From Venturia oleaginea (taxonomy: Eukaryota > Ascomycota > Dothideomycetes > Venturiales > Venturiaceae): a DNA stretch of 64,000 nt. The translations under genes were made by a program, and so were the position numbers. Shown here piece after piece: positions 13,870 to 38,082 of this stretch. The stretch is taken from assembly GCA_013176395.1 (NCBI GenBank), contig JABMLP010000016.1:744001-808000 (forward strand), written 5' to 3'. Each line of letters starts with the position of its first letter. Positions within the stretch are counted from its first letter, which is position 1. The notes beneath the pieces are model-generated. The model was not told the origin of the DNA. It was given only the letters and a program-made list of their open reading frames with translations, and did not search any database.

Positions 13870-15179
13870 GGGTAAAGTCAAGACACGATCAAGCCGGATA
13901 AAATAATAATAATTAACTTAATATAAGTAATGTTAACATATAATGAGTATAAATCATGTGAGCTTCTTGTTGTGGTTATTATTGTGCTGATATCCGCTCT
14001 CTACTGCCGTTTTCTCCAGCCGCCAGTCGAAGCCAGCACCTTTACCGGTAAATGTGTTCGAACTTCGGCCGAAAGAAAGCGGATGTCCGAGGCGCCAAGC
14101 AAGATGATCAATGGAATACTATGTTAGCCACTCTGCTGAGGCCACACACAGCGGCGCTTAATGCCAGCGGAACGTCGGCACATGGACGGGCTATCTCCGA
14201 ACGCCGGTCCAACGGTTTGTCCGTTCCTCGCCTCGCCGTTCACGCGCCCACGTCTCGATGTACGATTTCCAGTCCTTGGCTCCTTGCTTCCGCTTTGCTC
14301 TTCAACCACCAAATTTGCATCATCGACTCCGAGAGCCTGCAACACATCGCGCCCCGTCTTATCGCAATGCTGGACAACGAAAACTGTCGCGTGCAGTCAG
14401 CAACGCCCCTAGATGCAACCTCGATGCGATCATCGGAACTTCATCACCAGTCATCCATTTTAATCGTGTATTCGGATGCCGGCGCTTTGGTAGCGCTGTG
14501 CGGATCTTGTCGCGGCAAGATGGATAATTCGTTGGCTTGGATACTTGGCTCCTGTTCTTGTCCGACTCACCTCTTCCTCAACCTGGGGAAAGTCATGGCT
14601 AACATGCTTGTTGGCTGTAAAGCTGGCGCCAAGCTCGACATGGCTCCTTGACTCGCTTCCATCTCATACTTCCCACATCAGCAGGTCGCTGACAAGCCAT
14701 GTACTTCGTCATATCACAAGTCTTTGTTCCTGATGTTTCGGCTGCCTTGCTGACAAGTTTGACTGAAGTAGCCATTACAAATCACTGTCTTGAGCAAGTG
14801 GTGTAGTAACCTGCTTGTTTAAATCATCTACTTCGTCGCCATCACCCATCGCCTTCTGCCTTTCCCGCCCCTCACCATTTTCGTTGTAGTGTACTTCTCT
14901 TGGTGTCGCGTGCTTCCTTCCTCCACATCGATCCGCGAGGCTCCGAAGCAGCAGACAATTCCCGGCTCGCAAACCCATACAAGGAAAGCGGGCTTTAGAC
15001 ACTCCGTCGGTCAAGTTATCTCGCCGCCATTTCATTCCAAGCTGTGGACCCATTTTCTTTGACATTCCCTAAATCTAACCTACGTCCTGCTTTCTCACGC
15101 CACATTCTGTGTCTTTCTATAACATCCTTCAGATCCTTATTGCTGCCAACAAACCAAATCGACGTCACCTATCGCCGCT
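13870..15179. other. intergenic, no supported gene
   Basis: An AT-rich patch lies at about 13898-13950, just after the RNase T2 stop. A 199-codon frame at 14052-14651 opens with ATG but has no motif and overlaps competing frames on both strands, so it is not called. The end of the stretch is the promoter of the PAP2-family gene. Confidence 0.4.
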
Positions 15180-33660: not shown

Positions 33661-34775
33661 ACGTAGTCTATAGGCCTATGCGCCATATATGCCTGTGCGC
33701 CAACCCCACTGAGTATTCTTACAAAAAACGTATATATTTCAAGAACACCGCCATCTATAACAGTAATATACATTTTAATTGGTTCTTTGACGCTCTGGGC
33801 AGGTCCTAGCATTATGCTCAAGCGACTGGCATACGCTGCACTTTGGTGGTGCTCGTTGCCGTACCTGAGCAGGTACATTTTCAACCCCCTCAGTAGGCGT
33901 ATTCTGCTAGCCACCAGAGACCTATCTCGTTGGTTGTCCAGCCGTTCTCGCTCACGCCAATTGCCCAATCTGGTGGTAGGATCCCGTCTGAATATCAGGC
34001 TGCCTGGTGCATTACTGCCTCGAAAATAACGAGCGGAGGGATTGGAAACCCTTTCGCACAAATAGCCTCAATAACCGTAACCCACTCACGGTTGCCTGGC
34101 TGCGTTGTCCTCGGTCTCCTAGCCTTATCTGCTCCTGTAACAACCTTTGCAGTTGAAATTACCCCCATCTGAAAACCAGTCTCGTCAAAATTGTAGATAT
34201 CGTCATCGAGGATGCCATGCTCAGCTTGTGTACGTCGTACGCCTTCAAACCAGGCTCGAATTAGGTCTAGGTCTTCGCATTTTGCTCGCTGGTTGTCGTA
34301 CTTGCGGTTGTACTTCGATTTTAGTACGTCGTGGCGGTTAATAAAGTTGCGTACCCAGCATTGGCCTGCAGAGACGAGTTGGCCATGTTGACTGGCTAAA
34401 AGGCTTGCCATAGTCCGTACGGCGGCAACAGTAGGTGGCATACCGCGTTCATCCATTGAAAGTATACGCTGTACAAGATACTCTTCTTCGGTGGGTGTAA
34501 GGAGGCGGTTTTTCGCGGTAGAACCAAGTCGTGGTTGAGTACCAGCAATACGGCGTTGCAGGGTATCTCGTGGGACGTCATAGGCTTGCGAGGTAGCTCT
34601 ATAGCTTTGAAAATCGCCGTTTTTATAGGCTTGAACAGCTAGTTCAAGCCTACCTTCTCGGTGTAAGGCCTCTTGTCGTTGTGGCGGTACCATCTCGTGT
34701 GGTAATAGAGGAACGCGTCGCGTTTGGTAGGGTTGGCGCACAGGCATATATGGCGCATAGGCCTATAGACTACGT
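33661..34775 (-). mobile_element. deleted pogo/Fot-type (Tc1/mariner superfamily) DNA transposon
   Basis: The 1115-bp element is bounded by perfect 46-bp terminal inverted repeats (33661-33706 and 34730-34775, beginning ACGTAGTCTATAGGCC) and flanked on both sides by TA, the expected target duplication. Inside, on the minus strand, is the N-terminal part of a DDE_1-type transposase. Relatives of this type are nearly twice as long, so the 3' half of the gene has been lost by internal deletion. The perfect repeats imply that the ends are recent or still usable in trans. Confidence 0.88.
33900..34747 (-). pseudogene. truncated DDE_1 transposase with CENP-B/psq helix-turn-helix
   Basis: Translation from the ATG at 34747, which lies inside the terminal repeat, gives 250 residues to a stop at 33995. 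Residues about 30-70 (ELAVQAYKNGDFQSYRATSQ) are a psq-type DNA-binding helix-turn-helix. Residues about 90-150 are a CENP-B-type second DNA-binding domain. The first catalytic Asp is in DIYNFDETGFQMGV. The stop is TGA where relatives have Trp after EAVMHQAA. Family sequence continues past it as DGILPPDWAIGVSENGW and then breaks off before the second catalytic Asp. No functional transposase can be made. Confidence 0.8.
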
Positions 34776-37868: not shown

Positions 37869-37891
37869 GGTGAGATGACCGAGCGGTTTAA

Positions 37892-37941
37892 GTAAGTTTG
37901 ACTATTCAGACCAATCAACTCGTTCTAACATCGTGTCCTAG
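37892..37941 (+). other. spliceosomal-intron-like insertion 1 in the tRNA D arm
   Basis: This 50-nt segment starts GTAAGTTTGAC and ends TCTAACATCGTGTCCTAG. It carries a consensus 5' splice site, a CTAAC branch motif 14 nt before the end, and a TAG acceptor. Removing it joins GGTTTAA to GGCTCTAGG, restoring a Leu-tRNA D arm exactly. Size and signals match introns in neighbouring protein genes. Confidence 0.65.
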
Positions 37942-37998
37942 GGCTCTAGGTTAAGGTCACCAACCTTAGCATCGAATTCCTAGTGGAGAAATCCTCGT

Positions 37999-38049
37999 GT
38001 AAGTTGATTTCACCTCGGAAATGGATGAGCGTGTACTGACATTGTAAAG
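37999..38049 (+). other. spliceosomal-intron-like insertion 2 before the tRNA T arm
   Basis: This 51-nt segment starts GTAAGTTGATT and ends TACTGACATTGTAAAG. It carries a consensus 5' splice site, a CTGAC branch-like motif and an AAG acceptor. Removing it joins CCTCGT to GGGTTCGAATCCC and completes the T stem. Confidence 0.65.
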
Positions 38050-38077
38050 GGGTTCGAATCCCATTCTCATCATACTC

Positions 38078-38082
38078 TTTTT
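38078..38082 (+). terminator. candidate RNA polymerase III terminator
   Basis: A run of five T lies 6 nt after the tRNA discriminator base; a second five-T run follows at about 38097-38101. T-runs at this distance are the normal Pol III stop signal. Confidence 0.6.

Follow-up and report, generated by a model that had tools for sequence, protein, structure and literature searches.

Spliceosomal-type introns in a tRNA-Leu(AAG) gene of Venturia oleaginea and in a class of 30 tRNA genes of the same genome

How is a transfer RNA made from a gene that is interrupted three times, and twice by segments resembling the introns of protein-coding genes? The textbook division of labour assigns mRNA introns to the spliceosome and tRNA introns to an endonuclease and a ligase. 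For the window analyzed here, a stretch of 64,000 nucleotides from Venturia oleaginea, a first-pass annotation had described a tRNA-Leu(AAG) gene at odds with this division, with two extra inserts beside a normal 21-nt intron and a spliced form of 82 nt. We ask what these inserts are, whether they are confined to this gene, and whether the spliced product is likely to be used.

The locus at 37869-38072 is a class II tRNA-Leu(AAG) gene of four exons, all on the plus strand, and its letters and coordinates match those given earlier. Exon 1 (37869..37891), as delimited by ARAGORN, comprises the 5' acceptor strand, the 5' D stem and the D loop through A21, and contains an undivided A-box region, TGACCGAGCGG (37876..37886), with A at position 10 where three sister genes have G. 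A spliceosomal-type intron of 50 nt follows (37892..37941; GTAAGT...CTAAC...TAG), placed at tRNA positions 21|22 (our own numbering), with a branch-site-like CTAAC at 37925..37929. Exon 2 (37942..37956) carries the 3' D stem, the 5' anticodon stem and the anticodon AAG, and is separated from exon 3 by a canonical anticodon-loop tRNA intron of the endonuclease type (37957..37977, 21 nt; ARAGORN i(40,21)). Exon 3 (37978..37998) provides the 3' anticodon stem, the variable arm and bases 1-2 of the T stem. The second spliceosomal-type intron, 51 nt long (37999..38049; GTAAGT...CTGAC...AAG), lies at positions 50|51 in the same numbering and has a branch-site-like CTGAC at 38036..38040. Exon 4 (38050..38072) completes the T arm and adds the 3' acceptor strand and the discriminator A, and it holds an undivided B box, GGTTCGAATCC (38051..38061). 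A T5 run resembling a Pol III terminator (38078..38082) starts six bases past the gene end at 38072; TTTT does not occur within 37869-38072. Joined, the exons measure 82 nt. Both inserts thus begin with GTAAGT and end in AG, in agreement with the ends first reported for them. The motifs CTAAC and CTGAC are likewise present; the branch-type A lies 13 nt from the end of intron 1 and 10 nt from that of intron 2, where about 12-15 nt had been given.

Removal of both extra segments is required for this gene to be read as a tRNA. ARAGORN called tRNA-Leu(aag) only with both 37892-37941 and 37999-38049 removed, and called nothing at the gene with neither or just one of them removed. Rfam cmscan found no tRNA, neither at the unspliced locus nor across the window; at the locus this is expected because the exons are short. 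When any segment of 38-95 nt could be taken out with no sequence rule, the best structure was restored by 36 segments for the first insert and by 4 for the second, and each of these sets holds exactly one GT...AG segment, which has the boundaries originally proposed. The endonuclease-type position, one base 3' of the anticodon, is occupied by the 21-nt segment and not by the two extra segments.

The window copy itself may be drifting. Of its 82 exon positions, 5-6 deviate from the three closest sisters, among them A10, which breaks a D-stem pair, and a T for G just before the anticodon stem. The minimum-energy fold of its spliced form is not a cloverleaf and retains the acceptor and T stems; the corresponding fold of a sister retains the acceptor, anticodon and T stems and not the D stem (3/4 stems). 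Function is less sure for this copy alone than for the class to which it belongs. Elsewhere in the window, a P-type ATPase shares 87-89% identity with proteins of Venturia nashicola, V. inaequalis and V. effusa, and a P450 shares 84-85% with proteins of V. nashicola and V. inaequalis, which points to a member of the Venturiales. An open frame on the minus strand (33998-34762), about 3 kb from the tRNA gene, encodes Tc5-type transposase DNA-binding and Psq HTH domains.

All genome counts were obtained from one assembly (G000; 46.08 Mb, 61 contigs), the sole eukaryote genome searched. The Rfam tRNA model yielded 58 matches in the whole genome, 62 at E<=10, in a run that scored just 63 of 1697 candidates, so that many genes, uninterrupted ones too, were missed. 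Only five of the 30 interrupted genes described below were among its matches, a sixth (L098) was partly found at E<=10, and the window gene was missed, which means that the tRNA annotation of such genomes is incomplete. ARAGORN, run on the Rfam matches, already made T-arm inserts visible in Ser(AGA) and Gly(CCC) genes. The search pattern, a B box followed by a T run, had 131 matches (several per place) vs 19 for the reversed pattern, and a further B-box run 101 vs 16 reversed (about 100 of the 101 matches listed). Most places matching the first form of the B box were examined; a second form matched 30 times, as often as its reversed version (30), and eight places were examined, and a third form gave 14 matches vs 33 reversed, with six places examined and a seventh already in the set. 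B-box matches were excluded if the Rfam list had them as well, if they lay on contig C38, which is mitochondrial, or if they were duplicates (one case, C22:156637).

Candidate genes were scored with a purpose-written tRNA parser. Uninterrupted nuclear genes of the Rfam list score 24.8-30.5, with the exception of initiator-type tRNA-Met genes, which the parser does not recognise, and two tRNA-like repeats. Removal of GT...AG segments, tested on 88 loci, restored many tRNAs to this range; loci without a tRNA reached at most 21.7, and one tRNA-like locus without a clean parse (L082) scored 24.2. This test, which had no branch rule, supplied 30 of the 43 introns of the final set. The other 13 came from an enumeration requiring a branch motif (L121, L139, L140) or from reading by eye (L073, L086, L115, L124, L143). 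Because genes were found with B-box patterns and mostly with GT...AG removal tests, the set favours GT...AG introns, and the patterns are biased against introns inside the B box. Ambiguous readings include a Ser(CGA)-like locus with a possible acceptor-stem intron (L060), two loci of odd isotype (L070 and L038), and L107, for which the parser offers two equally good splice choices and ARAGORN accepts a 52-nt removal, not the tabulated one of 48 nt. Several repeated sequences were also recorded. On contig C58 (18,945 bases), two organelle-like tRNA-Arg(TCG) genes of identical sequence are oriented in opposite directions (L021, L022), and near-identical tRNA-like sequences with their flanks on C19 and C60 (L051, L052) are perhaps part of a repeat. 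A stretch with GTCTCTAGGTTAAGG is repeated on five contigs (C19, C28, C40, C41 and C42); in three of these (C19, C40 and C42) its distance from the contig start is about 14,090-14,113, which looks subtelomeric.

The window gene is not alone. We found 43 GT...AG inserts in 30 tRNA genes specific for eight amino acids (Leu, Pro, Ala, Glu, Gly, Arg, Ile and Ser), with one to three inserts per gene. They are 47-89 nt long (median 53, n=43) and occupy about 15 sites, from 9|10 to 57|58 in our own numbering. A hand list contains 53 nuclear tRNA genes without such an intron, which puts the interrupted share at 30/83, both counts being incomplete. The Leu hosts have the anticodons AAG, CAG, CAA and TAG, and include a TAA-like gene that lacks part of the D arm and keeps a GT-AG intron in the T arm (L115, G000:C34:343522-343577; uninterrupted sister L024). 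One Leu(AAG) gene, L124, combines three GT-AG introns with a 34-nt anticodon-loop intron. In the Ser(GCT) genes L139 and L140 the intron splits the anticodon stem, which is continuous in the uninterrupted sister L018.

ARAGORN called 28 of the 30 genes in spliced form, 26 with the amino acid and 24 with the anticodon that we had assigned. There was no call for L115 and, as curated, L107; L121 and L103 were called as other tRNAs, and L085 and L089 as Leu in a different anticodon register. With the unspliced genes the program made no call in 23 of 30 cases and an incorrect one in six; only L048 was assigned to the right kind of tRNA. An Arg(TCT) gene with a T-arm intron (L132, G000:C20:147054-147083) has A in place of the usual T at position 33. 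The reading of the class is unaffected by this gene and by the ARAGORN mismatches, since it does not rest on them. By eye, one base is lost from T-arm C runs in L073, L086 and L097, through either drift or homopolymer errors of the assembly.

The inserts have the features of U2-type spliceosomal introns, namely GT/AG ends with G at +5, a branch motif that precedes the 3' end by a short and constant distance, and the length of mRNA introns. Among the 30 introns whose discovery involved no branch rule, 27 have G at +5, which was not a search criterion, as do 39 of all 43; A at +3 occurs in 32 of 43. The motif CTRAY lies within the last 20 nt of 24 of those 30 introns, as compared to a mean of 2.5 and a maximum of 9 for shuffled interiors, and of 33 of the 43 overall. 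In 34 of 43 introns a branch-type A (YTRAY) precedes the 3' end by 10-12 nt. Canonical tRNA introns of the same genome provide the contrast: GT...AG was seen in 0/53 and CTRAY in 3/53, which, together with the sites 21|22 and 50|51, upholds the view that the two window inserts are unlike tRNA introns. The initial comparison with neighbouring protein genes is also borne out in size, as the inserts of 50 and 51 nt stand beside protein-gene introns of 61, 53, 52 and 52 nt mapped by homology in the window, a small comparison set from which two further EFL1 introns, one of about 55 nt by eye, were excluded.

GT...AG ends were themselves a search criterion in the removal test, and without that rule they were recovered in 32 of 39 cases. 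In this boundary test any segment of 38-95 nt could be removed, and GT...AG was among the structure-optimal segments of 32/39 introns (expected 1.9), compared to 17/39 for the next commonest pair of dinucleotides. Where the optimum was tight (at most nine optimal segments), GT...AG fitted in 19 of 23. The seven introns without a GT...AG optimum are in L054, L062, L089, L100 (twice), L106 and L121; four introns of L073, L086 and L115 are outside the 39 covered. Because the genes of this test had been chosen by GT...AG removal, single removal without any rule at all examined loci is less biased. Seventeen loci then reach a score of at least 25.5, and GT...AG is included in 12 of the 17. The five others are L054, whose intron is beyond the tested range, L062 and L106, in which another segment scores slightly higher, L100, which has two introns, and L082, which is unexplained.

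We conclude with high confidence, from features of the sequence, that the window gene would give rise to a pre-tRNA-Leu(AAG) that contains two spliceosomal-type introns and one of the endonuclease type, and that would be transcribed by Pol III and processed by both the spliceosome and the tRNA endonuclease and ligase, as one member of a class of 30 genes. The undivided A and B boxes would serve Pol III for initiation, and the T5 run for termination. The introns of 50 and 51 nt would be ordinary short GT-AG introns excised by the spliceosome, and the 21-nt anticodon-loop intron would be excised separately by the tRNA splicing endonuclease, followed by ligation. Transcription by Pol III, excision by the spliceosome, the order of processing and the function of the mature tRNA are what we infer here. 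The suggestion of the first-pass annotation that the transcript needs both machineries is strongly supported by recurrence across the genome, by the splice signals, by the conservation of exons and by the fact that no Leu(AAG) gene free of a GT-AG intron was found, and thus seems well founded.

Among other Pol III genes of this genome, introns of the same type occur in U6 genes, which also favours this reading. Four U6 genes (L156-L159) are uninterrupted. Two others, L170 (G000:C12:1178091-1178250) and L171 (G000:C36:59841-60006), contain GTAAGT...CTAAC...AG introns of 52 nt and 58 nt, respectively, at two different sites, that of L170 being between CAGAGAA and GATTAGC. In a diverged U6 copy (L172, G000:C2:1122156-1122218), a GT...AG insert of 49 nt occupies the same site as in L170. 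Among the 5S genes, 32 of 33 above-cut-off matches are 120-121 nt long and one is 106 nt, and none is visibly interrupted.

The first-pass annotation had raised a second possibility, that mobile, introner-like introns had landed in the gene. Under this hypothesis such elements would recently have spread into tRNA genes, which is compatible with removal by the spliceosome. Introns are indeed present in some and absent from other near-identical paralogs, and one pair of introns is clearly related although its members occupy different positions. This pair, the only one among the 43 introns, resides in two related Leu(AAG) genes, at 30|31 in the anticodon stem of L124 (contig C59) and at 57|58 in the T loop of L143 (contig C60); 27 of 31 bases match, with a score of 37 vs a shuffled maximum of 25, and 39 of 58 columns agree end to end. 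Such a pair could have arisen by reverse splicing or by some other form of intron transfer. Introner-like elements, however, are recognised by many near-identical genomic copies, and for 20 of the 43 introns, which were compared to the genome by BLAST, there were self matches only, so that no repeat family was found for these 20. The second-best intron pair has a score of 26, owing to 13 bases shared around the branch site, and all others score at most 22, compared to the shuffled maximum of 25. From these 20 introns and the pair scores, a recent spread of introner-like elements appears unlikely. We see about even chances for a broader proposal, again drawn from sequence comparison, in which the spliceosome would be a tRNA-processing enzyme in this lineage, decoding of the Leu codons CUU/CUC and the Arg codon AGA would depend on it, and the introns would perhaps have arrived by reverse splicing of excised introns into structured RNAs and subsequent gene conversion, as proposed for U6.

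The extra segments could also be non-canonical tRNA introns like those of Cyanidioschyzon merolae, nucleomorphs and archaea, which the tRNA endonuclease would remove via bulge-helix-bulge motifs. In those systems introns can interrupt the D arm, the T arm or the anticodon stem, and one gene can carry several (PMC4090602). Pairing between exon ends and intron ends, measured with a simple proxy and not a bulge-helix-bulge covariance model, was nonetheless not above shuffled sequence for the extra introns (3.02 vs 3.28), whereas it was for the canonical introns (4.45 vs 3.93 with the same proxy). Removal by the endonuclease, which we consider highly improbable for these segments, is also at odds with the GT-AG ends, the +5 G, the constant position of the branch motif and a length like that of introns in protein genes.

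Equally improbable is that the interrupted genes are pseudogenes or relics, broken by insertions while intact copies do the work. Signs of decay do exist, in the drift of the window copy and in the defects of L115, L073, L086 and L132. The class as a whole, however, has lost neither its stems nor its conservation, and the exons are conserved whereas the introns hardly are. In six isoacceptor groups exon identity amounts to 93-100%, while same-arm introns reach 52-73% in global alignment, where shuffled sequences average 53-58%; the small excess is partly due to shared splice signals. These signals have been retained despite diverged intron bodies. Stem changes are paired: in Ser(GCT) genes the pairs 57/73 and 60/70, flanking the T intron, differ between L018 and three interrupted genes, and the pairs 27/43 and 28/42 of the anticodon stem differ between L050 and the others. 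After removal of the introns, interrupted L048 is identical to uninterrupted L013 at 80 of 80 compared exon bases, and other interrupted genes are near-identical to their uninterrupted sisters (L106/L093, L095/L117, L100 and L062/L120, L053/L032).

Nor were intact copies found that could take over. The first-pass annotation had named many intact Leu(AAG) genes, together with a lack of spliced reads, as observations that would reduce the locus to a relic, and none of the six Leu(AAG) genes found is free of a GT-AG intron (0/6). The Leu exon pattern has six exact matches (four AAG, two CAG), all of which have a GT-AG intron in the D arm (6/6). When one mismatch was allowed there were 17 matches, nine of which were examined, and one (L143) is a tRNA gene. 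L124 and L143 represent a second type of Leu(AAG) gene; they are the sole matches to their own exon pattern, and both are interrupted. The two matches to the Arg(TCT) pattern, one of them L132, are interrupted as well (2/2). Exon patterns thus revealed no GT-AG-free copy of Leu(AAG) or Arg(TCT), although a divergent copy could escape them. Since such introns interrupt all the Leu(AAG) and Arg(TCT) genes that were found, some of the tRNAs of the cell probably depend on the spliceosome.

An assembly artefact can practically be dismissed, as the one-base T-arm deletions of L073 and L086 hint at homopolymer errors but 43 different inserts with a common splice grammar on many contigs are not expected of misassembly.

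Other features weigh against the proposed reading. Some inserts interrupt the A box (9|10, 13|14 and 15|16) and that of L143 the T loop, and such inserts should weaken Pol III promoters. The T-loop intron of L143 cuts the B box, and a B-box-like sequence, AGTTCGAATGC, is found inside the intron itself. TTTT occurs inside the introns of L062, L075, L089, L107 and L139 (5/43 vs 9.4 in shuffles) and TTTTT in none (0/43 vs 2.8 expected; 4% of shuffles reach zero). This scarcity of T runs hints, if weakly, at selection favouring read-through by Pol III.

If true, essential tRNAs that need both systems would break the rule of separate splicing pathways and tie translation capacity to spliceosome activity. 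The genes would also offer a natural system with many intron gains or losses in short RNAs, in which structure reveals function, and would thereby open the hypothesis of intron gain by reverse splicing to experimental test. The first-pass annotation knew of no described case, and the literature that we searched (titles and abstract openings, with many subscription papers outside it) likewise contained no report of spliceosomal introns in tRNA genes. In the accessible part of the tRNAscan-SE 2.0 paper, a search for non-canonical introns is described for archaeal tRNAs.

The known systems nearest to these genes share some of their features. The tRNA introns of C. merolae, nucleomorphs and archaea are alike in their positions in the D arm, T arm and anticodon stem and in their number per gene; for C. 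merolae and archaea the source describes a link of these introns with bulge-helix-bulge motifs and the tRNA endonuclease, and it gives a length of 3-24 nt for the non-canonical introns of the nucleomorph that it cites (PMC4090602). The introns described here differ in being about 50 nt long, with GT-AG ends, a branch motif and, by the simple proxy, no such pairing. A second comparison is with the gain of introns through introner-like elements in Dothideomycetes. It concerns the same fungal class, but no multi-copy family emerged for the 20 of 43 introns tested. Fungal U3 snoRNA genes are alike in that normal spliceosomal introns interrupt a small structured RNA and intronless and interrupted copies coexist; the genes described here differ in that the hosts are tRNAs of many isoacceptors, with positions throughout the molecule. 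In fungal U6 snRNA genes of Schizosaccharomyces pombe and others, an mRNA-type intron interrupts a small structured Pol III RNA, and these genes are thought to have acquired their introns by reverse splicing (PMC10484740). In contrast to U6, the hosts here are tRNAs, and a single gene can combine up to three GT-AG introns with one of the endonuclease type. Small structured RNAs with spliceosomal introns are already known from U6 and U3, whereas the tRNA hosts and the double dependence on two splicing systems appear to be new.
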